Assembly: GCA_902785365.1 (NCBI GenBank)
Contig: CACZYC010000001.1
Span: 1-64,000 of the forward strand
Direction of reading: 5' to 3'
From: an uncultured Ruminococcus sp.
GTDB lineage: Bacteria > Bacillota > Clostridia > Oscillospirales > Acutalibacteraceae
DNA: 64,000 nt
The notes under the pieces are model-generated. The model did not search any database. It was given only the letters and a program-made list of their open reading frames with translations, and was not told the DNA's origin. Positions 3,724 through 58,338 of the stretch are shown here, one piece after another (positions within the stretch are counted from its first letter, which is position 1; the number at the start of each line of letters is the position of its first letter). Made by a program: the position numbers and the translations under genes.

Positions 3724-3725
3724 GT

Positions 3726-3753
3726 AGTACTCAGTAGTCAGTAGTTAGTAATC
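3726..3753 (+). repeat. Heptad array, left side of cassette
   Basis: Four consecutive 7-nt units: AGTACTC, AGTAGTC, AGTAGTT, AGTAATC, then a decaying AGTTTGA. It is the same degenerate repeat (AGTNNTC) found at a dozen other sites here. An inverted array lies at 4123-4157. Confidence 0.85.
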
Positions 3754-3774
3754 AGTTTGAGTTAGGAGATTATT

Positions 3775-4152
3775 ATGGCAGGAAAAAGTTATAAAGATTT
3801 ATTGGTGTGGCAAAAATCAATTGATTTGACAGTAGAGATATATAAACTGGTTAAGTTTCTTCCAAATGAAGAAGTTTATGTACTTTCAAGTCAAATGCGC
3901 CGTGCCGCTATCTCAATACCTTCTAATATAGCAGAAGGACAGCAAAGAAAATCAAATAAGGAGTTTATCAATTTCTTATCAATAGCGCGTGGTTCAAAAG
4001 CGGAATTACAAACACAATTGTATTTGTGTTACAAATTAAGCTTGTTAACAAAACAACAAGTCGAAAAACCAATGAATATGCTATCAGAAATAGGAAAGAT
4101 GATTAACAAGCTTATGGAGTCAATTAACTGGCAACTGACTACTGACTACTAA
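3775..4152 (+). CDS. Four helix bundle protein (23S rRNA intervening-sequence type)
   Basis: The 125-residue product matches the S23/IVS-encoded four-helix-bundle family in length and in its hallmarks: KDLLVWQKSIDLTVEIY at the N-terminus, an SQMRRAAISIPSNIAEG segment near residues 40-56, and a following helix with FINFLSIARGS. Proteins of this family are found in 23S rRNA intervening sequences, and relatives include the Avd accessory protein of diversity-generating retroelements. Their biochemical role is mostly unknown. The last codons (LTTDY then stop) are written by the inverted heptad array. The codon mix is more A+T-rich than flanking genes, indicating separate origin. Confidence 0.85.
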   Translation: MAGKSYKDLLVWQKSIDLTVEIYKLVKFLPNEEVYVLSSQMRRAAISIPSNIAEGQQRKSNKEFINFLSIARGSKAELQTQLYLCYKLSLLTKQQVEKPMNMLSEIGKMINKLMESINWQLTTDY

Positions 4153-4157
4153 TTACT
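4123..4157 (-). repeat. Heptad array, right side of cassette
   Basis: Five units in reverse orientation: ATTAACT, GGCAACT, GACTACT, GACTACT, AATTACT. It overlaps the 3' end of the four-helix-bundle gene and supplies its stop codon. Confidence 0.85.
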
Positions 4158-4171
4158 AAAAGGAGGAAACT

Positions 4172-4998: not shown

Positions 4999-5517
4999 AT
5001 GGCAAATCCTGTTGTAACATTTAATACAAACGCGGGCATAATAAAAGCGGAGCTTTATCCCGAAATTGCCCCCAACACAGTAAATAACTTTATCAGCCTT
5101 GTTCAAAAAGGCTATTATGACGGCTTGACATTTCACCGTGTAATCTACGGTTTTATGATTCAGGGCGGATGTCCCGAAGGCACAGGTACGGGCGGTCCCG
5201 GCTATCACATCAAAGGCGAGTTTCTTGCCAACGGGTTCAAGAACGACCTTAACCATACCGAGGGAGTTCTTTCAATGGCGCGCGCAATGATGCCCGACAG
5301 CGCGGGTTCGCAGTTCTTTATTATGCACAAAAACTCCCCGCACCTTGACGGCCAGTACGCGGCTTTCGGCAAGGTTATCGAGGGTATGGACGTTGTCAAC
5401 GCTATAGCCGAGTGTGATACCGATTTTGCCGACAAGCCTCTTGACGCCCAGGTTATGGAGAGCGTAACTGTCGAAACCTTCGGCGTGGATTATCCTGAAC
5501 CTGAGACTGTTCAGTGA
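4999..5517 (+). CDS. Peptidylprolyl isomerase, cyclophilin type
   Basis: Cytoplasmic cyclophilin of 172 residues with no signal peptide, catalysing cis-trans isomerisation at proline. Seen: the FHRVIYGFMIQGG active-site strand, the GTGTGGPGY loop, and SQFFIMH with an H-LDG-YAAFGKV segment, all in family order. The start follows GAAAGGACAG. The terminal codons GTT CAG TGA merge with a heptad array that begins at the stop codon, so the native C-terminus may have been slightly altered. Confidence 0.93.
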   Translation: MANPVVTFNTNAGIIKAELYPEIAPNTVNNFISLVQKGYYDGLTFHRVIYGFMIQGGCPEGTGTGGPGYHIKGEFLANGFKNDLNHTEGVLSMARAMMPDSAGSQFFIMHKNSPHLDGQYAAFGKVIEGMDVVNAIAECDTDFADKPLDAQVMESVTVETFGVDYPEPETVQ

Positions 5518-5566
5518 TCAGTGATCAGTGGACAGTGAATGGCGGGCGTTGCCCGCACCCAAATTG
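5513..5566 (+). repeat. Heptad array plus GC hairpin
   Basis: Units AGTGATC, AGTGATC, AGTGGAC, AGTGAAT run from the ppi stop codon and are followed by a GGCGGGC..GCCCGC hairpin. The same array-plus-hairpin unit occurs inverted at 36276-36330. Confidence 0.8.
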
Positions 5567-5590: not shown

Positions 5591-5652
5591 TGTCATCCTG
5601 AGCGTTAGCGAAGGATCTTATAAGATTCTTCGGCAAGCCTCAGAATGACAGT
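5591..5652. repeat. TGTCATCCTGAGC palindromic repeat, copy 1
   Basis: A 60-bp imperfect palindrome starting TGTCATCCTGAGC and ending CTCAGAATGACA. A near-identical copy lies at 11358-11416. Similar palindromes are scattered through many gut Firmicute genomes (recollection, not searched). Confidence 0.85.
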
Positions 5653-5694
5653 GCGAAACTTCCCAGAATAGCATTGCTTTGATTAGGAGAAACT

Positions 5695-9339: not shown

Positions 9340-9343
9340 ATTT

Positions 9344-9371
9344 AGTTCTCAGTAGTCAGTGATCAGTGGTA
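9344..9371 (+). repeat. Heptad array
   Basis: Units AGTTCTC, AGTAGTC, AGTGATC, AGTGGTA. An inverted array at 9750-9777 closes a 434-bp segment that contains a CTTCCC element and a hairpin but no gene. Confidence 0.85.
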
Positions 9372-9375
9372 ATGT

Positions 9376-9600
9376 AGGCTTCCCTTGGGGGAAGCTGTCG
9401 AGCGAAGCGAGACTGAAGAGGGTCCGCTTGAAAAAGAAATAAATTTAACGTTTCATAAAACGAGCATTTCTAAAGTCGACCCTCTCCCGACCAATTCGCC
9501 TTTGGGCGAATTGCCCACCCTTTCCTTAGCAGGAACGGCAACCCTTTTGTCGGCGTTGCCGACATTTCCCCTAGCAGGGGAATTTCCCAAGGGAGGGCTT
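9376..9600. mobile_element. CTTCCC-hairpin element, copy 1
   Basis: Non-coding element. The left end has a CTTCCCTTGGGGGAAG hairpin, then a GTC..GAC hairpin and GAAGAGGGTCC. The right part is inverted: GACCCTCTCCCGACC, a hairpin AATTCGCCTTTGGGCGAATT, then a TTTCC..GGCAACCC..GTCGGC module and terminal TCCCAAGGGA. It contains no open frame with a ribosome site. It shares both ends with copies at 10395, 21936, 28372 and 41681. Confidence 0.75.
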
Positions 9601-9635
9601 TGCCTTCTATCTAGAATCAATTCTTCGATAAACAG

Positions 9636-9669
9636 AAAGTCTTAGGTTCTGTGCTGAGCCTAAGACTTT
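9636..9669 (+). terminator. Hairpin inside heptad-bounded segment
   Basis: AAAGTCTTAGG pairs with CCTAAGACTTT, followed by TGTTTT. It looks like a terminator but no gene lies upstream within the segment. Other heptad-bounded segments also carry one central hairpin. Confidence 0.5.
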
Positions 9670-9749
9670 GTTTTATAGTATTAGATGATTATAAATTGTT
9701 TGGGAACTAAACTTTTAAGTTAGCAGTTTCTTTGTACTCGACATTCACG

Positions 9750-9777
9750 GATCACTGCCTACTGACCACTGACCACT
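9750..9777 (-). repeat. Heptad array, inverted
   Basis: Units GATCACT, GCCTACT, GACCACT, GACCACT, the reverse complement of the array at 9344-9371. Confidence 0.85.
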
Positions 9778-9799
9778 ATAAATAATCGCGCTCGCGCGA

Positions 9800-10694: not shown

Positions 10695-11264
10695 ATGAAA
10701 GTACTAGTTGAAACATCCGCGCGTCATTTGCACGTTTCCAGAGAAGATTTAGATACTCTGTTCGGCAAAGGCGCTAAGCTCACAAATAAAAAAGATTTAT
10801 CTCAGCCCGGTCAGTTCGCGTGCTTTGAGAGAGTAACTGTTGTAGGCCCCAAGGGCGAGCTCAATATGTCTATTCTCGGCCCCGAGCGTAAAGAAACTCA
10901 GGTTGAGGTCAGCTTCACCGACGCCAGAAAGCTCGGCCTTGTTCCTCCCGTACGCGAGTCGGGCGATATCGCTGACACACCCGGTTGTAAGCTCGTAGGC
11001 CCCGAGGGCGAAGTTGAAATCAGCAAAGGCGTAATTGTCGCCAAAAGACATATCCACTTCACTCCCGATGAGGCTGCTCAGTTCGGCGTAGAGGACAAGC
11101 AGATTGTGTCCGTTAAGGTCGGCACTCCCGGCGCTCGTGAGACAATCTTCGGAGATACAGTAGTTCGTGTACGCTCGGATTTCTCAGCCGCTATGCACAT
11201 CGACACAGACGAAGCCAACGCGGCGGGACTGTCAGGCGAGGTTTACGGCGAGATCATTAAATAA
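10695..11264 (+). CDS. pduL: Phosphate propanoyltransferase PduL type
   Basis: PduL-family phosphotransacylase of 189 residues, interconverting acyl-CoA and acyl-phosphate. The ATG at 10695 is preferred because AAGGTGG sits 8 nt upstream; a GTG at 10683 overlaps that site. Seen: two halves with zinc-binding histidine motifs, SARHLHVS near residues 8-15 and KRHIHFTP near 117-124. There is no N-terminal encapsulation peptide and no microcompartment shell gene nearby, so it probably acts in the cytosol, making acetyl-phosphate for acetate and ATP as in other Clostridia. The metabolic role is inference; family membership is firm. Confidence 0.92.
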   Translation: MKVLVETSARHLHVSREDLDTLFGKGAKLTNKKDLSQPGQFACFERVTVVGPKGELNMSILGPERKETQVEVSFTDARKLGLVPPVRESGDIADTPGCKLVGPEGEVEISKGVIVAKRHIHFTPDEAAQFGVEDKQIVSVKVGTPGARETIFGDTVVRVRSDFSAAMHIDTDEANAAGLSGEVYGEIIK

Positions 11265-11298
11265 GTAGTCAGTAGACAGTAATCAGTAGTCAGTTAAG
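11264..11298 (+). repeat. Heptad array after pduL
   Basis: Units AGTAGTC, AGTAGAC, AGTAATC, AGTAGTC, AGTTAAG begin at the pduL stop codon and run into the terminator stem. Confidence 0.85.
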
Positions 11299-11320: not shown

Positions 11321-11357
11321 GTTTTTTGAATATACTGTTATCTTAAATGTTTTCATC

Positions 11358-11416
11358 TGTCATCCTGAGCGTAAGCGAAGGATCTTTAAGATTCTTCGGC
11401 AAGCCTCAGAATGACA
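11358..11416. repeat. TGTCATCCTGAGC palindromic repeat, copy 2
   Basis: A 59-bp palindrome nearly identical to 5591-5652, starting TGTCATCCTGAGCG and ending CTCAGAATGACA. It lies between the converging pduL and hemolysin III genes. Confidence 0.85.
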
Positions 11417-11423
11417 TTTTGTT

Positions 11424-12187: not shown

Positions 12188-12616
12188 ATGATTAACGACA
12201 CACAAATGCTGCAGTTCATTATGAAAAACGCCGAGATGGGCTGCCGCGGAATCAACGACATCAAACACTATTCAAACACAGCCAAAATGGCGCGTGAGCT
12301 GCGCTCGCAAAATCTGGAGTACGGGCATATCTACCACAGCGCGCACTCTATGCTGCACAGTATCGGCGGCGAGAGCAAGCACATCCATCCCGTTGTGGCG
12401 ACTATGGCGAGAGCAAAGGCAAAGCGGGAGATGAGGGTGGAGGACTCGGACTCTCATATTGCCGAGATGATGATTAAGGGTAATACAATGGGCGTAAACA
12501 AAATCGCTCAACGTATGAGACAGTACGACGGCGGTAATAAGGAGGTCGCCAATCTTGCCAACAGGCTGATGGAAACCCAGCAGAATAATATTGAAAGTAT
12601 GAAAAGCTTTTTGTGA
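12188..12616 (+). CDS. Hypothetical helical protein
   Basis: A 142-residue protein, soluble and predicted to be nearly all helix, rich in Met, His and Asn. No family recognised with confidence. Histidines recur in the first half (IKHYS, YGHIYHSAHSMLHS, SKHIHP), a pattern that could fit a small metal-binding helical bundle, but this is speculation. The ATG follows GAGGTGAAAC. It stands alone and its stop codon abuts the heptad array of the next element. Confidence 0.7.
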   Translation: MINDTQMLQFIMKNAEMGCRGINDIKHYSNTAKMARELRSQNLEYGHIYHSAHSMLHSIGGESKHIHPVVATMARAKAKREMRVEDSDSHIAEMMIKGNTMGVNKIAQRMRQYDGGNKEVANLANRLMETQQNNIESMKSFL

Positions 12617-12768
12617 GTAGTCAGTAGTCAGTAATCAGCAGTCAGTTCATCGTTAACAAACGAAAAAAAAGGATATAGCGGAACATCTGTCGGGGAATGT
12701 TGCGCTATTTCTTATTCTTTTATTTATCGCGTGAACAACTGAGAACTGAAAACTGACTGCTGAGAACT
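12616..12768. mobile_element. Heptad-bounded non-coding element A
   Basis: A 153-bp element. The left array (AGTAGTC, AGTAGTC, AGTAATC, AGCAGTC, AGTTCAT; 12616-12650) is inverted relative to the right array (AACAACT, GAGAACT, GAAAACT, GACTGCT, GAGAACT; 12734-12768). Between them sits a 10-bp hairpin AGCGGAACAT..ATGTTGCGCT. Element B at 20404-20555 has the same length, order and core words (AACAAA, AACATC, CGCGTGAACAACTG). There is no coding potential. Confidence 0.75.
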
Positions 12769-12778
12769 AAAATAATGC

Positions 12779-17480: not shown

Positions 17481-18293
17481 ATGAAGTCGGTGACTGAAAT
17501 GAAGCTTAAAAATATTGACAAGGGAAAAGAATTTGATTTTGGCAGGACGTCCGACGTTTACGCAAAGTACCGTGATATTTATCCGAAAAGTATGTACGAT
17601 AAACTTTTTGAACTGGGTATCGGTAAAAGCGGTCAGAGAATCCTCGACCTCGGCAGCGGCACGGCGGTTTTGCCGCTTAATATGTACCATAAAGGCGCGC
17701 AGTTTGTTTCGACCGACATTTCCGAAAATCAGATTGTGCAGGGTAAGCGTGCGGTAGAGGAGAGAGGGATAAAGAATATACAGTTCAAGGTCTGTTCAGC
17801 TGAGAATACGGGCTTTGAAGACAACAGTTTTGATGTTGTAACGGCTGTGCAGTGCTTTCAGTATTTTGACGCCGAGAAAGCGGCTGAGGAGATATACAGA
17901 ATACTGAAGCCCAACGGAATCTTTTGTAAAATCTTTATGGACTGGAAGCCTTTTGAGGATCCCGTGATTTATGAAATGGAAAATCTGGTGTTGAAATATA
18001 ACCCCGAATGGAGCGGTAAAGGCTTTAGGGAGTATAACTTCACCTTCCCCGAATGGGCAAAGGATAGGTTTGAAATAGCGGACGTAATCTCCTATGACGC
18101 GGAACTGGAATTTACAGGGGAAGCGTGGCTCGGAAGGGTGAAAAGCTGCCGCGGCGTCGGCGCGAGCCTTTCAGAGGAGAAGATAGCTGAATTTGAAGAA
18201 GAATACCGTGAGCTGCTTAAAAAATACACAGAACCGCTCAAGCTGAAACACCAGATACATATTGAAAAGTGGTCAGTGGTTAGTGGTCAGTGA
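17481..18293 (+). CDS. Class I SAM-dependent methyltransferase
   Basis: A 270-residue cytosolic methyltransferase of the Methyltransf_11 type. Seen: motif I ILDLGSGTAVLPL near residues 54-66, a following acidic STDISENQ loop, the VTAVQCFQYFD post-motif near 119, and a helical C-terminal half. The substrate cannot be inferred. The ATG at 17481 and the in-frame ATG at 17499 are both possible; neither has a strong ribosome site. The final residues (KWSVVSGQ) are encoded by a heptad repeat array, so the original C-terminus has been replaced or extended. Confidence 0.85.
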   Translation: MKSVTEMKLKNIDKGKEFDFGRTSDVYAKYRDIYPKSMYDKLFELGIGKSGQRILDLGSGTAVLPLNMYHKGAQFVSTDISENQIVQGKRAVEERGIKNIQFKVCSAENTGFEDNSFDVVTAVQCFQYFDAEKAAEEIYRILKPNGIFCKIFMDWKPFEDPVIYEMENLVLKYNPEWSGKGFREYNFTFPEWAKDRFEIADVISYDAELEFTGEAWLGRVKSCRGVGASLSEEKIAEFEEEYRELLKKYTEPLKLKHQIHIEKWSVVSGQ

Positions 18294-18360
18294 TCAGTTA
18301 ATCCCGCGAAAAAGATATAATAAAAGAAATAGCAGAGCATTTCTCGCGAGATGCTCTGCT
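18268..18360 (+). repeat. Heptad array plus hairpin (half element)
   Basis: Units AGTGGTC, AGTGGTT, AGTGGTC, AGTGATC, AGTTAAT overlap the methyltransferase stop codon. A perfect hairpin AGCAGAGCAT..ATGCTCTGCT follows at 18331-18360. The layout matches the left half of elements A and B; no inverted array closes it. Confidence 0.75.
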
Positions 18361-20390: not shown

Positions 20391-20403
20391 ATATTTTCCT
20401 CTT

Positions 20404-20555
20404 AGTTCTCAGTAGTTAGCAGTCAGTTCTCAGTTTATCACTAACAAAAGAAAGTGAAAAGAATTAGCAGAACATCTTTCGGGAAACATTCAGGTAATAC
20501 TGTATAAATTCTTTCGCGTGAACAACTGACCACTGTCTACTGAATACTGACCACT
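20404..20555. mobile_element. Heptad-bounded non-coding element B
   Basis: A 152-bp element with left array AGTTCTC, AGTAGTT, AGCAGTC, AGTTCTC, AGTTTAT and inverted right array AACAACT, GACCACT, GTCTACT, GAATACT, GACCACT. The core shares words and order with element A (ACTAACAAA, AGCAGAACATC, CGCGTGAACAACTG), while its central hairpin is more degraded. It is inserted between the SPFH and zinc-ribbon genes of one operon. Confidence 0.75.
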
Positions 20556-20557
20556 AA

Positions 20558-35094: not shown

Positions 35095-36198
35095 ATGAAG
35101 ATTAAATCACTGCGCTTAATAAGCGTAATTCTGGCGGCGCTTATGGTCCTGTCTGTTCTGTCTGTAGTTTCTGCTTCGGCTGATTCCACAGCAAGCGGAC
35201 AGACAGGCGACTGCTGGTGGCGCTATGATGAGGATACCAAAATCCTCTCAATCTCAGGTGAGGGCGCTACCGAGGACTATATGATAGGCGGAGCTCCGTG
35301 GTTTACATACGACGTTGAGACAGTTTATGTTGAGGAGGACGTCACAAAGCTCGGCGAGAACTTCTGCTTCGGTATTCCCTCAATAACACGCGTTTCACTG
35401 CCCGAGTCTCTCGAAGTAATCGGCAAATACGCATTCAAAGGGACTTCAATCAGGGAAATTGTTATTCCCTACTTTGTAACGGATATAGGCGAGGGCGCCT
35501 TCCAGTCCTGTGAGCAGCTCCACACTGCGGAGCTCGGCAGTCATCTTGAGACTATCTCTTACCTTGCGTTCGCGGAAACAAACATTAAAAGTATTTATAT
35601 CCCGCGGAACGTTTCCACAATTATCTGGAAAGCGTTCGGCAACTACAGGAGCGATTTAACTCTCTATTACGCCGAGGGCACAACTGCCGCCCAGACAGTT
35701 GTTGACTTCTGCTCGCAGTATTACTTTGACTGTATGCCTGTTTCGTTTAATTCACCCGTACTCAAGGCGGGACAGACAAAAACACTTTATCCCACAGCTT
35801 CTTACGCTGGAGGATTCACCTCAACTAAAAAGACTGTTATAGGTACGGTTACGGCTCTCAAAAAGGGTACAACCAAAATCAGAGCTATACTCGACGACGG
35901 CGCTGTAATTACCGATACAATCACGGTTAAAACCAACCCGTCAATCAAGGTTAATAACAAGGCGTTCAAAGCCAAAACGAGATACACCGTAAAGAAGGGC
36001 AAGTACCTCACAGTTAAAATCACGGGCAAGGCTAAGTCCGTTAAGAACATCTACTCAACCTCGAACAAGAAGATTGCCAAGGTTACGTCCAAGAACACGG
36101 CGACAACCGTTAAGATAAAAGGCGTAAAGAAAGGTAAAGCTACCGTCACCGTAAAGGTCAACGGCTGCGCGTTCAAGATTAAAGTCAAGGTTAAGTAA
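35095..36198 (+). CDS. Leucine-rich-repeat surface protein with Lys-rich C-terminus
   Basis: A 367-residue secreted protein: signal peptide 1-28, a short domain with DCWWRYDEDTKILSISGEG typical of BspA-type proteins, LRR_5 repeats (about 85-195) with IGKYAFKGTSIREIVIP and similar, and a C-terminal Ig-like/Lys-rich region (about 220-367) ending VNGCAFKIKVKVK. It has no LPXTG or membrane anchor; the basic C-terminus may bind the wall or surface polymers (inference). It follows the DUF4428 gene by 39 nt with AGGAGG. Confidence 0.8.
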   Translation: MKIKSLRLISVILAALMVLSVLSVVSASADSTASGQTGDCWWRYDEDTKILSISGEGATEDYMIGGAPWFTYDVETVYVEEDVTKLGENFCFGIPSITRVSLPESLEVIGKYAFKGTSIREIVIPYFVTDIGEGAFQSCEQLHTAELGSHLETISYLAFAETNIKSIYIPRNVSTIIWKAFGNYRSDLTLYYAEGTTAAQTVVDFCSQYYFDCMPVSFNSPVLKAGQTKTLYPTASYAGGFTSTKKTVIGTVTALKKGTTKIRAILDDGAVITDTITVKTNPSIKVNNKAFKAKTRYTVKKGKYLTVKITGKAKSVKNIYSTSNKKIAKVTSKNTATTVKIKGVKKGKATVTVKVNGCAFKIKVKVK

Positions 36199-36231
36199 TT
36201 CTTAATGCTTAATTCTTAATTCATAATTATA

Positions 36232-36275: not shown

Positions 36276-36330
36276 GGGTGCGGGCTTTGCCCGCCATTCA
36301 CTTACCACTTACCACTTCTCACTTATCACT
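36276..36330 (-). repeat. Heptad array plus GC hairpin, inverted
   Basis: Reading on the minus strand: five heptads (AGTGATA, AGTGAGA, AGTGGTA, AGTGGTA, AGTGAAT), then GGCGGGC..GCCCGC. It is the same unit as at 5513-5566 and again starts at a CAG TGA stop codon, that of the RND gene. Confidence 0.82.
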
Positions 36331-39300
36331 GCTCCAACAGTGTTTCCGCAAACTCAGCGGTTTCATCAGCCTCGTCTTCGAGGTTTTCACCCACGTCAAC
36401 AACCTTGGGCTGCTTGCGGTAGAATATGTCGTACATCACAGGCACTATAAACAGCGTCATAAGCGTTGAGTACAGAAGTCCTACGCTTACCACAACCGCC
36501 ATACTTCTCTGCATAGCGTTGCCCGCGTCCTGAGAGAATACCATTACGCTCATCGAGAGAATTGTCGTAAGCGCTGTCATAAGGATAGGCCTCATCCTGG
36601 TCTTTCCTGTTTCGATTAACGCGCGGCGTTTGTCGAGCCCCTGTATTCTCAGCTTGTTGGCAAAGTCAACAAACACGATACCGTTGTTTACGACGGTTCC
36701 CATAAGTATCATAAAGCCCATCAGGGACATTCCCGAGATTGTCATTCCGAACAAACTCAGTCCTATCATACCGCCCGTGAACGCCAGCGGAACCGTAAAG
36801 ATGATAATGAAAGGCGAGAGGAAGCTCTGGAACTGCGCGACCATAATCAAATAGATAAGTATGAATCCCAGAAGTATCGCTCTGACCATCTGATTGACCA
36901 TTTCCTCGGTCTGGATTGCCGAGCCCGCAATCTCAATTTCATAGCCCGCGGGGGCTTTGTAATTGTCGAGCTTTTCCTGAACCTTGCGGCTGAGCAGAGT
37001 TGCGTTCTCGCCATCGGCGATTTCCGACTCAACCTGCAGGTACATACGCTGGTTTTCGCGGGTGATGTTGCTCATTGTGTAGCCGTCGGTGACATACGCG
37101 AACTTTGAGAGCTTGTAGGCCTTAGTGACGTCGTTGCCCTGGGCGTCCTTCTTTGTCGCGGTGATTTCGGTCTTAAGAATGTTTTCGTAGGTGACGCGGT
37201 CGGTCTTATCGACTATCTCCACATCCACATCCTTGTCGTTTATGTTCAGAGTGGCGGCGGTCTTTTCCGTAGCGGCTTTAGCGGCTACCTGCTGAAAAAT
37301 CTGAGCAACAGTCAGTCCGTACTCAGCCGCCTTGTTGCGGTCAATGTGGAGCTTGAGAGTTTTGTCCGATTCGGTAATTCCGTTTGAGGCGTTCTCAATT
37401 CCCTTGACGCTGTTCATCATTTTGATGACGTCCTCGCTGATTTTGATCAGCTGTTCCTTATCGTCTCCGTAGATGTTGACGCTTACACCGCCGCCCGCCA
37501 GAGATGACATACTGCTCATAGCCGAGGACGAAGCCGAGAGTTCCTTGCAGTCTATGTATTTGCTTTGTTTCTCGATTTCATTTCGGATTACTCTGTATTG
37601 GTCGGTGGTTGTGACGTCGTCGTTGGTCAGAACATTAAACGAGAATATGGAATAGTTGTTTGTAGAGAAGCCCGAACCCGCTATACTGGATATAACACCT
37701 GTGTTGCCGTCGAGGCCGCTGACCTTGTTTACACCTTTGATTTTCATTATACGATTCATAACCTTGTCGGCTGTCTTGAACGCTTTTTCCTTTTTGATTC
37801 CTTCCTCAAGTGTGAGCGTTACGGTAATCTGATTGCTCTCTGTGGAGTCGAGCGTGGTCATACCCGTGCCGAAAACCTGGAAAATCATAAGAGCCAAAAG
37901 CACGATGGACACCGTGAGAGGAATAAACTTGAACCTCAGGCAGAAAGCGAGAGCTTTGCCGTAGGCGTTCTTGAGCTTGTCGTACCAGTTTTGCTTTCTC
38001 TCCCTGTTCTTTTTGAGGATAAGCGAGCCTATTGTGGGTACGACAGTCAGCGCGACAATCAGAGAAGCTATGAGCGCGTAGGAAATCGTGAACGCGAACG
38101 GTATCATAAGCTGAGCCACAATTCCCGTGGTGTATACCATCGGCAGGAAAACGCAGATTGTGGTAGCGGTGGAGGCGATAATCGGAGCCGCCACCTGCTT
38201 TGTGCCCTGAACCGCGGCGCGCGGAGCGGGGATACCTTTTTGTCTCATTCGGAAGATGTTTTCCATTACCACGACGGAGTTGTCCACAAGCATACCTATA
38301 CTTATGCACAGTCCCGCAAGCGACATTACATTGAGGTTAATCCCCGTAAAGTACATTATTATCAAAGCGAAAAGCACCGAGAACGGTATGCTGAACGCAA
38401 CTACAAATGTGGGCTTAACTGACTTGAGGAACAGAGCCAGCACGATAATCGCCAGAATCGCTCCGAGCAGAATGCTGCTGAGAACGCTGTTGAGAATCCT
38501 GGTGATATAGTCGCCCTGATTCATCATCTGGGTAAAGCTGAGCCCCTTATACTTGGTTTCCAGTTCGTCAAAAGCCTTGTTGATTTCGTCGGATACCTCG
38601 CTTGTGTTGGCGGTGTTAACCTTGTAGACGGAAAGCATTACGGCATCATCGCCGTTTACCTTACAGAAAGCCTCGCCGACGTTGTCGACTGTGACTACAT
38701 TTGCCACATCGCTGAGTTTGATTTTACCTATGCCGCTGATTTTTGTGAGCACCAGATTTTTGAGCTGTTTTTCACTCTTGAAGTTCTCGTCAATCTCTAT
38801 GAGCCACTGGTTCTCGTCCTTGTCCTCAACATAGCCCGCGGGCATTGAGAAATTCTGCGCCGAAATAAGCTGTGAGAGAGTGTCGAGAGTGAGAAGCGCG
38901 TCAATGTTTGAATTTTCCTTTGCCGCTTTGATTGACTGATCAAGCTTTTTTTCTGCTTCGTCGAGCTCCTTCTGAGCGTTTTCTATCTGTGTTTCGGCTG
39001 AGTTGAGCTGAGCCTTGCCCGCTCCGAACTCAACGGCGGCGTTCAGTTCCGCGGAATTTACGTCGGTCTGATTTTCGTCAAGGTTGCTCACTCTTTTGTT
39101 GAGCTGGTCTACTATGGTTTCCTGAACCTTAATCTTTGTGTTAAGGTTAGCGAGTTCCGTTTCAATCTGCGGAATACGAACCTTTACGGCGTTGTACACC
39201 TGCTTGAGAGTGTCAAGACTGAGGTCTTTGACCTGTTCGCCATACCCCGCGTCGTTCATCCATTTGATGAATTTCTCATATTCTTCAGGATTTTTGACAG

Positions 39301-45989: not shown

Positions 45990-46304
45990 ATGCAGGATGT
46001 AATTAAAAAACTGGTGGATATCGACGAGCAGGCGAAAGTATTCAACGAAGAAACGAATAAGGAAAAAGAAAAGCTCGAGGTTCAGATTCAGGAAGACGCC
46101 GAGAAGATTTACGAGAAATATATGTCTGACGCTAAGGTTGAAGTAGAAACCGAGAAAAAGAAAATCGACGCTGACGGAGCCGCCAAGTTTGAACAAGGCG
46201 AGGCGCGCCGTAAGGAACAGGCGCAGGTGTTGAAAAATAAGTTCGACGCGAACGCCGATAAGTGGGTCGAGCAGATAGTTGAGTCAGTGATCAGTGGTCA
46301 GTGA
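45990..46304 (+). CDS. ntpF: V-type ATP synthase peripheral stalk subunit G/H
   Basis: A 104-residue, almost entirely helical protein with heptad E/K/A spacing (IDEQAKVFNEETNKEKEKLE), matching the peripheral stalk subunit that pairs with subunit E. It is first gene of the ATPase operon. Its last six residues (SVISGQ) are written by a heptad repeat array, so the usual C-terminus has been overwritten; the in-frame part up to about VEQIVE is normal for the family. The symbol follows the Enterococcus ntp nomenclature. Confidence 0.82.
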   Translation: MQDVIKKLVDIDEQAKVFNEETNKEKEKLEVQIQEDAEKIYEKYMSDAKVEVETEKKKIDADGAAKFEQGEARRKEQAQVLKNKFDANADKWVEQIVESVISGQ

Positions 46305-46327
46305 TCAGTGATCAGTGGTCAGTTATT
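46286..46327 (+). repeat. Heptad array overlapping the ntpF end
   Basis: Six units: AGTGATC, AGTGGTC, AGTGATC, AGTGATC, AGTGGTC, AGTTATT. It is the longest array in the window. It starts inside the coding frame and supplies the stop codon. Confidence 0.88.
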
Positions 46328-46337
46328 AGAACTAAGG

Positions 46338-46559
46338 CTGAGTTTGACGAGGACAACTAAAAAGATGAACTTGTACTCTCGCAGCAGACCTTGATAGGGA
46401 ATAGCGGTGCGGGGGAGAATGGAGCTCAGACAGAGGCACACTGAGTATGACGAGGACAACTAAAAGATGAACTTGTACTCTCGCAGCAGACCTTGATAGG
46501 GAATAGCGGTGCGGGGGAGAATGGAGCTCAGACAGAGGCACACTGAGTATGATGAGGAG
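46338..46559 (+). repeat. Tandem 102-103 bp direct repeat
   Basis: Unit 1 (46338-46440) and unit 2 (46441-46542) are almost identical, differing by about one base and one A in a run. A third, partial unit starts at 46543 (CTGAGTATGATGAGGAG) and leads into the ntpC ribosome site. Each unit contains CAGACAGAGGCACA and a GAGGAC motif. They look like a duplication of the ntpC 5' region. Confidence 0.9.
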
Positions 46560-46568
46560 AAACAAAAA

Positions 46569-47588
46569 ATGAGTTATGCGGCGTATACGCGCGCCAAAGC
46601 GAAATACGGGAAACGGTTGAGAGAGAAGGACTACAAGTCGCTTCTCAACTGTGAGAGTGTTCCCGACGTTATGGCATACTTAAAATCGAATACAAGATTT
46701 ATCGACGCGTTTGGCGAAGCTAACGAGCGAGGAATGAGGCGCGGACTTTTTGAAAGTCTTTTGAGGCAGTATTATATCAATGAGATAGATACGATTTGCC
46801 GATACGAGTTGAGCGTAGGTGATTATGTGTCAAAGTATGTGGCTCACAAGACCGAAATTGATGAGATAATCAGGATTTTGACTGTGCTCAATTCTAAGGA
46901 AAAACGCGAGTATAATTTTACGGTTCCCGCGCATATCGCAAAAAGAACCTCGATAGATTTGAACGCGTTGTCAGAAACTAAAACTTTCGAACAGTTTGTG
47001 GAAGCTGCCAAGAAAACTCCTTACGAGAAGATTCTCAAGAAATATATTGCTCAGAAGAACAAACAGATTCCGATAACAGAAATCGAAAGCGAGCTTTATA
47101 CTCAGCTTTATATCGAGCTGTATGAGATGATTGACAAAACGAACGAAACGGAGAGACGCGACCTGAAATCTTTCCTTGACTCGACTATCGACTTCAGGAA
47201 TTTTTTGAATATAATTCGAATAAAGAAATATTACGAAACTGACAATAAGGTCGTCAAAAGCCATATAATACCTTTCGGCAGCTTAAAGCCCGAGGTTATC
47301 GACGAGATGTGTAATGCCGAAAACCCCAAGCAGGTTTATGATATTATGGCTCAGACCAAAACAGGAAAGCTCATTGATAAGGTCGATTATGACTATATCG
47401 ATGAACTTGAGATAAAAATCAAGTACAAAAAAGCAAAACACAATATGTACTATTCCGAAAGCTCCTCAACGGTTATGATTTCTTATATCATACTGTGTGA
47501 GATTGAGCTGCACAATCTTATTTGTATTACAGAGGGAGCGAGATACAGAGTCGATAAGGATGTTATTGAAGCTCTCCTTGTTTATTAA
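46569..47588 (+). CDS. ntpC: V-type ATP synthase subunit C
   Basis: The ATG at 46569 is chosen: it follows GATGAGGAG and the family N-terminus (YAAYTRAKAKYGKRL) begins here; the open frame upstream is the repeat. The 339-residue product is the helical V0 subunit C (d-like) that sits as a cap on the membrane ring and joins the rotor shaft. No conserved catalytic motif is expected. It is followed 46 nt later by subunit I. Confidence 0.93.
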   Translation: MSYAAYTRAKAKYGKRLREKDYKSLLNCESVPDVMAYLKSNTRFIDAFGEANERGMRRGLFESLLRQYYINEIDTICRYELSVGDYVSKYVAHKTEIDEIIRILTVLNSKEKREYNFTVPAHIAKRTSIDLNALSETKTFEQFVEAAKKTPYEKILKKYIAQKNKQIPITEIESELYTQLYIELYEMIDKTNETERRDLKSFLDSTIDFRNFLNIIRIKKYYETDNKVVKSHIIPFGSLKPEVIDEMCNAENPKQVYDIMAQTKTGKLIDKVDYDYIDELEIKIKYKKAKHNMYYSESSSTVMISYIILCEIELHNLICITEGARYRVDKDVIEALLVY

Positions 47589-57800: not shown

Positions 57801-58281
57801 TACTACTACTGTCAAGGCGACCGTTGAATACGGCGCAGTCAGCACCACGTTCAAGTCCAGCAACACAAAGGTTGCGACAGTTTCCTCGGCCGGCGTTGTA
57901 AAAGGACTTAAAGCTGGCTCGGTGACAATTACAGCCAAGAACAACGGTAAGTCTGATTCGGTTAAGATTAAGATAGTCAAGAAGGCTAACCCGATGAAGG
58001 TCAGCGCCAAAAAGACTGTTACAGCTAACTCCAAGAAAACGACAACAATCAAAAAGGCTGTTACAGTTAAAAAGGCACAGGGCAAACTCACTTTTAAGAC
58101 CAACAACAAAAAGGTCGTAATCAAAAACGACATTATTAATCTCGGCGACGGTAAAATGATAGTAGCCAAGGGATTAAAGAAGGGCAAGACCTATACGGTC
58201 AAAGTTACAGTCAAAGCCGCAGGCAGTACAATGTATAAGGCGGGCAGCAAGACGGTGACGGTAAAGATAAAAGTTAAGTAA
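54898..58281 (+). CDS. Large secreted starch-binding-type surface protein
   Basis: A 1127-residue secreted protein. Domains: signal peptide 1-33; CBM26-like module (about 38-135, IIYFEKPDSW..IYIYYWEG); a beta domain with GTYKINNGTPVQYTDG (about 138-222); second CBM26-like module (about 228-320, LAYFDNSKYNWDDVYIYAYG..WPGVKM); second beta domain (about 327-412); a CBM9/DOMON-like domain (about 440-760, TVDGNPSDWDSS); an Ig-like domain (about 770-860); a Thr/Glu/Gln/Pro linker (about 865-960); a Big_2 Ig fold (about 962-1035); and the Lys-rich C-terminus ending VKIKVK. No glycoside hydrolase domain, dockerin or LPXTG was seen. It is best read as a starch/glycan adhesin; this is inference from module patterns. 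Confidence 0.75.
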   Translation: MKLTKSFKKSVSLILSAILILSLFSVAAVSASAVSSGDIIYFEKPDSWSDNIYIYYWEGSPKPSGLQDYKMESVGGNIYKYTAKASFSEFLFNDGTHQTVNVTLPASGKMCRVLSTGRNNDWGNFCNDATWVDFEQQSIGLSVGASPKNCDFVGSIEVTLSVTETPYGTYKINNGTPVQYTDGTKITLGADAQVGDVIKLDLSASADGETTNESYTYTKVSTPSASSLAYFDNSKYNWDDVYIYAYGTKENAEWPGVKMQRDDSGLYYYAFSSAFKNENIIFNNGKEKDAGKEQYPENSGLPLKAGECKLLTSDNEWVDYGTPDSKPAGFAYTANGTAFSTDTMNVKIGLKNAVKGTYRIDDGSEFEYTGTKVISVGQGKIGNSTVKLTLTAENDKGVKTSKNFTYKKTFTPSKTTYYSPSDGHTNNAVGGYYGTNPNMQLGKNKTITVDGNPSDWDSSMIIAQGVANDDPRVYMPSSMHEQPWDDYALYAAWDDTNIYFMWEMANTTYVVSPSDNFAASQEARPWRNSIPMYLALSIDPSIHADGTAWGTDKTGTPYTNPYVWGCDGGTAKDGGVGFTTNVDTLIAFDTNNSNGGASIFKADHYDQATDNYMFNYDTRIPIGVTSFEKQDNQNGFKIAHDYGTLSNTMYGVGGAKGSHTIGDSLSPNSNWVDFFDLGYQNNHGFIYEVAVPLEKLGIDKNYIETNGIGAMQILTYGTSGMDCLPYDASMQDNANVEYSYDPSTSHEKEDNDKITVPLARVGALLGDSVINEAPYEVNFGTDKAGTQGIGTPITLKAEPHNFKSNNLTYRFSVNHEVVQESSSDTYTFTPTDKMTYSLGVMVLDENGKYAAGGTSITIGEEAPAVTEPTVPTEITQPTQATEPTGTQATQTSSETQATESTETQATQSTETQATVETQLTEPTGDTQPTGTQATQSTDPTEQTQATETQAPETTIKLKATKSTIYVGSTTTVKATVEYGAVSTTFKSSNTKVATVSSAGVVKGLKAGSVTITAKNNGKSDSVKIKIVKKANPMKVSAKKTVTANSKKTTTIKKAVTVKKAQGKLTFKTNNKKVVIKNDIINLGDGKMIVAKGLKKGKTYTVKVTVKAAGSTMYKAGSKTVTVKIKVK

Positions 58282-58338
58282 GTATTTAGTATTCAGTATT
58301 CAGCACTCAGTGAAGGGCAGCGGAAATTCCGCTGCCCT
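58281..58338 (+). repeat. Heptad array plus palindrome
   Basis: Units AGTATTT, AGTATTC, AGTATTC, AGCACTC, AGTGAAG begin at the stop codon of the large surface protein. They are followed by a near-perfect palindrome AGGGCAGCGGAA..TTCCGCTGCCCT (58314-58338), which probably terminates that transcript. Confidence 0.85.

Follow-up and report, generated by a model that had tools for sequence, protein, structure and literature searches.

In the window, the 64,000-nucleotide stretch of an uncultured Ruminococcus sp. contig analysed here, a gene for an intervening-sequence-type protein (IVP) lies between two inverted arrays of a heptad repeat, and arrays of the same kind bound gene-free elements elsewhere in the genome. 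We propose, with a probability of about 0.6, that the locus at 3725-4158 belongs to a two-part family of repetitive elements as its gene-bearing form, a reading that includes recognition of the arrays by the IVP and upkeep of the gene-free satellites by the same protein.

The IVP element

The element consists of three features, the upstream array being read from the sequence and found again by a whole-genome pattern search, the gene being identified by profile matches and the downstream array being read from the sequence:

3725-3759, + strand: forward heptad array of five CAGTNNT units, upstream of the IVP gene
3775-4152, + strand: IVP gene (PF05635 / TIGR02436), 125 aa
4124-4158, - strand: inverted heptad array of five units, overlapping the 3' end of the coding sequence

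The product of the 3775-4152 gene matches the PF05635 (23S_rRNA_IVP) profile with an E-value of 4.8e-42 (142.9 bits against a curated cut-off of 33.8) and belongs to the TIGR02436 family (four helix bundle protein; score 139, cut-off 24). On the + strand the units of the upstream array are TAGTACT, CAGTAGT, CAGTAGT, TAGTAAT and CAGTTTG, and the inverted array encodes the last residues of the protein, LTTDY. The preliminary description of this DNA, which had an intervening-sequence-type protein gene between forward and inverted arrays, is thus borne out; the arrays it placed at 3726-3753 and 4123-4157 are present, but their ends lie a few bases away. It was also right that the locus is richer in A+T than its surroundings, the element having a G+C content of 32.5% and two neighboring genes 48.7% and 47.1%. 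The genes on either side encode a sodium:solute symporter and a short-chain dehydrogenase, so the element is intergenic and not inserted in a 23S rRNA gene.

The IVP is a small, widespread bacterial protein with no assigned function despite a solved fold. Its only Pfam matches are 23S_rRNA_IVP and bAvd, with no HUH/Y1 transposase domain, and no recognized nuclease or transposase domain was found in it. Comparison of the window gene with the second genome copy gives a dN/dS of 0.06, a rough value as dS is near saturation; the gene is under purifying selection. Two other readings of the locus were discarded, phage defense because a PADLOC search gave no match, and a plasmid copy because plasmid copies sought at the DNA level gave none.

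IVP genes across phyla

The comparison supports the view that IVP genes in general sit between inverted heptad arrays, across many phyla. We compared 213 IVP loci in three sets: 92 obtained by profile search of 250 genomes belonging to the window's bacterial family, 80 from named genomes of many phyla, and a further 41 mostly from the Xanthomonad family (the one to which the Lysobacteraceae bacterium of locus L256 belongs). At a period-7 score of at least 10, arrays are found to the left and right of the gene at 43 and 45 of the 92 loci, 49 and 41 of the 80, and 19 and 25 of the 41. The other periods between 4 and 12 give only 0-6 loci each, and segments more than 400 bp from the IVP gene contain arrays in 2.5% of cases in the 92-locus set. 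Where both arms are present they are inverted in 36/36, 36/39 and 19/19 loci of the 92-, 80- and 41-locus sets respectively, and arm similarity in the 92-locus set is 21.0 in inverted orientation as against 5.5 in direct orientation and 6.0 between loci. The preliminary description had raised the question of whether the gene is always flanked by arrays. They are present at many loci across phyla, but 33 of the 92 own-family loci have no array on either side at a score of at least 10.

The heptad itself varies between lineages, ruling out one universal sequence. G exceeds C in the 5' arm of 108 of 119 IVP loci. Protein identity correlates with heptad similarity (Mantel 0.30, permutation sd 0.02), a correlation that common ancestry of the linked sequences would produce too. 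As a separate observation, 16 IVP genes were counted in genome G162 of the window's own bacterial family; the heptads flanking them are of several kinds, and some of the arrays exceed 100 bases.

Gene-free elements and arrays in the window

A 31-base five-box pattern, with one mismatch allowed, has 13 matches in the window and 0 in each of 30 shuffles. Together with the period control, the shuffles rule out a chance origin of the arrays. Beyond the IVP element, the window contains the following features, the single arrays being read from the sequence:

5512-5539, + strand: single heptad array of four units, family C, overlapping the stop codon of the upstream gene
9343-9778, no strand: gene-free paired element, with forward array 9343-9370 and inverted array 9751-9778
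11263-11297, + strand: single heptad array immediately 3' of a stop codon, then a terminator-like hairpin
12615-12769, no strand: gene-free element, family B, with forward array 12615-12649, inverted array 12735-12769 and an 85-bp core with a hairpin
18267-18301, + strand: single heptad array at a gene 3' end, then a ATAGCAGAGC..GCTCTGCTA hairpin
20403-20556, no strand: gene-free element, family B, with forward array 20403-20437, inverted array 20522-20556 and an 84-bp core
46285-46333, + strand: heptad array of six boxes at a gene 3' end, family E
58280-58314, + strand: single heptad array immediately 3' of a stop codon, then a terminator-like hairpin

Two of these, 12615-12769 and 20403-20556, correspond to the gene-free elements with the same inverted arrays that had been noticed at 12616-12768 and 20404-20555, and neither holds an open reading frame of more than 37 codons. 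The paired element at 9343-9778 and the single arrays at 5512, 11263, 18267, 46285 and 58280 had been overlooked. In the paired element the core has a GGCTTCCC-type repeat beside a stem of the family A type (AAAGTCTTAGG..CCTAAGACTTT), and after the array at 5512-5539 comes the family C palindrome, GGCGGGC..GCCCGCACCC.

Arrays and core families in the genome

The window's own assembly comprises 1.96 Mb in 39 contigs, in which array loci were read from pattern and family searches. The loci read contain 96 arrays, which form 35 convergent and 0 divergent pairs within 700 bp, and the genome has three IVP genes. Two of the three sit among the array-bounded core types. The third belongs to another subfamily and is flanked by inverted arrays with a heptad of its own, AGGAATA, of which no gene-free copies were found in this genome, an observation that weighs against the two-part family.

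Four core families recur. The family A core is 130-350 bp long in most copies and runs from TGTCGAGAACA to CCCGACC; its central stem keeps pairing via two-sided changes (8 of 23 predicted pairs, counted over the whole structure). It is a repeated non-coding sequence with such a compensatory-change stem at loci L166, L171, L165 and others of this genome. An Rfam search of eight loci gave no match to this core, ruling out on that scope a known RNA family. Family B has a core of 81-85 bp and comprises the window elements 12615-12769 and 20403-20556 together with two others. In family C a single array precedes a GGGCGGGC..GCCCGCACCC palindrome, and in family E a single array precedes a repeat that ends near a start codon.

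The orthologous sites that we examined in two congeners are all without elements, among them the intergenic region of congener G074 corresponding to element 20403-20556 (L151), although divergence at these sites prevents insertion points from being placed exactly and target duplications from being recognized. At the level of sequence, the element-free sites show that elements have been gained or lost, without indicating a mechanism. They would be expected if an ordinary transposase, for instance of the Y1/RAYT type, had moved the elements as relics of the MITE or REP kind, with the IVP as cargo, and some Y1_Tnp match is present in 6 of 9 genomes tested. Genomes G074 and G096 nevertheless have arrays and no Y1_Tnp match, which rules out a Y1 transposase as the necessary mover, and the sole Y1_Tnp match in the window's own genome is partial and at a contig end. 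No target duplication is evident by eye in the listed element flanks, and a cargo gene would not stay tied to the arrays across phyla. We therefore regard movement by an ordinary transposase as very improbable, and return to the two-part family.

Gene-free copies and the heptad of the local IVP gene

If the gene-free elements depend on the IVP, their distribution and their heptads would be expected to follow it. In genome-association tests that treat related genomes as independent, which they are not, AGTNNY arrays were detected in 15 of the 250 genomes of the window's bacterial family, and each of the 15 has an IVP gene against 119/250 overall (Fisher 9e-6); of 15 genomes of this family with GAATGCN arrays, 14 have an IVP gene (Fisher 2e-4); and 57 of 199 Xanthomonad-family genomes carry GGGAATC arrays, with an IVP gene in 43 of the 57 and in 42 of the 142 without arrays (Fisher 4e-9). 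Congener G185 has neither arrays nor an IVP gene. In these three comparisons arrays are restricted to, or commoner in, genomes with the gene, but 14 Xanthomonad-family genomes have GGGAATC arrays and no detected IVP gene, one of them with 90 hits (the GGGAATC genome counts are of overlapping hits, not elements). Gene loss or incomplete drafts could be the cause. These genomes, like the IVP loci without arrays, count in part against the interpretation offered in the preliminary description.

Array variants also resemble the heptad of each genome's own IVP gene: TAGTTTT in G074, CAGTGTT in G073 and GAGTGGC in G096. A covariance model of family A identifies two copies in G013, which is of another genus (E 8e-4 and 0.008). 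Both are bounded by AATGCAG arrays, the same sequence as at the IVP gene of G013, and the family A core carries CAGTNNT in G000, the window's own genome. The occurrence of the same core with different heptads indicates that it took on the heptad of the local IVP, and G013 is the strongest single case for gene-free elements following the IVP heptad.

These data bear on the possibility that the arrays are sites of another host factor acting at gene ends, in translation, termination or mRNA stability, and that the IVP uses them or was caught between them. In the window's own genome 47 of the 96 arrays begin between -34 and +5 of a sense-strand stop codon, and passages of MacGregor 2015 (PMC4679880) propose translational regulation for TAACTGA heptamers before start codons. 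Proximity to stop codons may, however, just reflect the sites tolerated in a compact genome. The heptad changes together with that of the IVP between related genomes, as the site of a conserved host factor would not, and the same layout is found at IVP genes in many phyla. We consider a host factor to be a decidedly unlikely explanation of the arrays, and favor recognition by the IVP.

Proposed recognition of the arrays

The IVP element folds into one long hairpin closed by the arrays (z -7.7), with a terminal stem like that of the 23S rRNA intervening sequences, and the RNA of gene-free element 12615-12769 also folds well (z -6.7). The arrays might accordingly act as RNA only, RNase III cutting the long stem so that the insert is harmless, with the IVP a passenger and the gene-free copies self-processing. 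There is a precedent in the Coxiella intervening sequence, for which PMC4990558 describes excision by RNase III, a terminal stem of 28 bp and heptamers upstream of the S23 open reading frame. Against this, 26 arrays of the window's own genome have no partner within 700 bp, and the spacers of the two arms show no covariation: their dinucleotides are identical in 37 of 131 cases, close to the expected 35.8, and A.C mismatches occur as often as G.U. The uncoupled variable bases rule out a duplex maintained by compensatory arm changes. A passenger role is also difficult to reconcile with purifying selection on the IVP, and leaves unexplained the heptad common to the IVP gene and the gene-free elements. 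On balance an RNA-only role is unlikely. The independently varying spacer bases indicate that each arm seems to be recognized alone, and a role for the hairpin may still be compatible with uncoupled arms, given how well the whole element is predicted to fold.

We infer, from the sequence relationships described above, that the IVP recognizes the arrays belonging to its family, whether as DNA or as RNA. Such recognition would let gene-free copies persist or spread at the expense of the IVP. The gene-bearing master with gene-free satellites envisaged in the preliminary description is thus well supported as genetics (layout, common heptads and genome association), but supply in trans by the IVP is a step that we infer. 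The IVP has no recognized nuclease or transposase domain, so any cutting and joining would need another enzyme.

The number of boxes offers a speculative model of recognition, and it is the mechanism that we prefer. Five boxes (NAGT in this genome) spaced by exactly 7 bases are present in 66 of the 96 own-genome arrays, a count favored by a search pattern that itself had five, and array lengths at IVP genes, measured without this bias, peak at 30-33 bases, equivalent to five boxes. The structural relatives of the IVP in the PDB, 2gsc and 2rld, have five chains per entry, and Xcc0516 is cited as a pentamer in passages of PMC4990558 and PMC3936711. Five boxes and five subunits suggest, as a hypothesis, one box per subunit, so that a five-box array would wrap one pentameric IVP ring. 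TRAP is a ring protein wrapped by its repeats in this way. Two inverted arrays could then bring together two rings and thus both ends of the element. Some arrays have at least six boxes, and a few far more, which a strict five-box rule leaves unexplained.

Relation to known systems

Intervening sequences of 23S rRNA that carry an S23/IVP open reading frame (PF05635) occur in Leptospira, Coxiella and Brucella. The IVP element has the same protein family, a similar size (about 430 bp) and inverted ends that form a long stem, but is intergenic, has arrays at both ends and is accompanied by dozens of gene-free elements in the genome. Speculatively, the rRNA intervening sequences, after which the protein family is named, could be such elements that landed in rRNA. 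Passages of the published Coxiella account (PMC4990558) describe tandem GACAGAT heptamers just upstream of the S23 open reading frame, and do not generalize them.

Like REP/REPIN-RAYT (TnpA-REP) systems, the family combines a gene-bearing element with many gene-free ones having the same inverted ends, and the ends match the lineage of the protein. Unlike them, it has in the IVP a protein that is no HUH/Y1 transposase, and five-box heptad arrays take the place of REP hairpins at the ends. The analogy with RAYT proteins drawn previously therefore holds for the layout but not for the enzyme, the IVP lacking the domain and Y1_Tnp being missing from two array-bearing genomes. Avd is the helper protein of diversity-generating retroelements. 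It is distantly homologous to the IVP (PHROG 4.6e-10, NCBIfam 8.2e-10), but the score of 38.9 bits falls below the curated cut-off of 80, and no reverse transcriptase is present among the genes adjacent to the IVP (transporter and dehydrogenase), which places the locus outside the diversity-generating retroelements.

Xanthomonas GGGAATC and Nostoc GGGGA(C/T)T heptamers are reported as G-quadruplex repeats in passages of Rehm 2015, with 70-75 convergent GGGAATC pairs per Xanthomonas genome (PMC4692102). These are likewise intergenic heptad arrays in convergent pairs, and heptads of the GGGAATC and GGGACC types are found beside IVP genes in the Xanthomonad family; the passages of that paper's main text are, by contrast, without mention of the IVP, and an association with mobile elements was not found there. 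TAACTGA direct repeats are described from Beggiatoaceae, Cyanobacteria and Bacteroidetes in passages of MacGregor 2015 (PMC4679880). They too are intergenic heptamer arrays beside genes, and their other strand, TCAGTTA, fits CAGTNNT. They differ in being mostly direct and before start codons, with one inverted repeat reported, and those passages contain no link to the IVP.

Heptamers have thus been reported before in the Coxiella intervening sequence (PMC4990558), as Xanthomonas convergent pairs (PMC4692102) and as Beggiatoaceae TAACTGA repeats (PMC4679880), and are nowhere in the passages of these papers tied to the IVP family as a whole. In the open-access literature we found no paper linking such heptads to the IVP family; priority is uncertain, subscription papers and preprints lying outside this coverage. 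The combination of IVP, inverted heptad arrays and gene-free copies points to a previously undescribed kind of protein-plus-satellite DNA element. Tentatively, and at somewhat less than even odds, there may be a pan-bacterial element class in which a pentameric ring of a protein lacking nuclease and transposase domains reads five-box arrays of a lineage-specific heptad and sustains gene-free satellites in trans, the rRNA intervening sequences and the heptamers of Xanthomonas, cyanobacteria and Beggiatoaceae included. If true, the array next to the IVP gene would give the family a target defined by sequence, and the role of the IVP would become directly testable. The rRNA intervening sequences, Xanthomonas GGGAATC and Beggiatoaceae TAACTGA repeats would be united as one element type, and REPIN-RAYT would be joined by a second example of a chromosomal gene whose ends recur in satellites.

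Other repeats near arrays

Two Rfam hits lie near arrays: L21_leader at L175:767-846, above its cut-off (37.5 bits, cut-off 36), and whalefall-1 at L023:427-491, below it (32.3 bits, cut-off 37). Between the heptad array at 46285-46333 and a start codon, a 102-bp unit is repeated in 2.3 copies (46338-46572), and GACGAGG..AACTAAAA sequences similar to this repeat follow arrays at C1:124825 and C7:24934. Palindromes of the form TGTCATCCTGAGCG..CTCAGAATGACA occur at 5595-5660 and 11340-11420 and are also nested within family A elements. Immediately 3' of a stop codon, at 36196-36228, there is a heptad-like array of TAATTCT units, and at 36278-36333 an inverted AAGTGGT-type array adjoins the family C palindrome, GGCGGGC..GCCCGCACCC.
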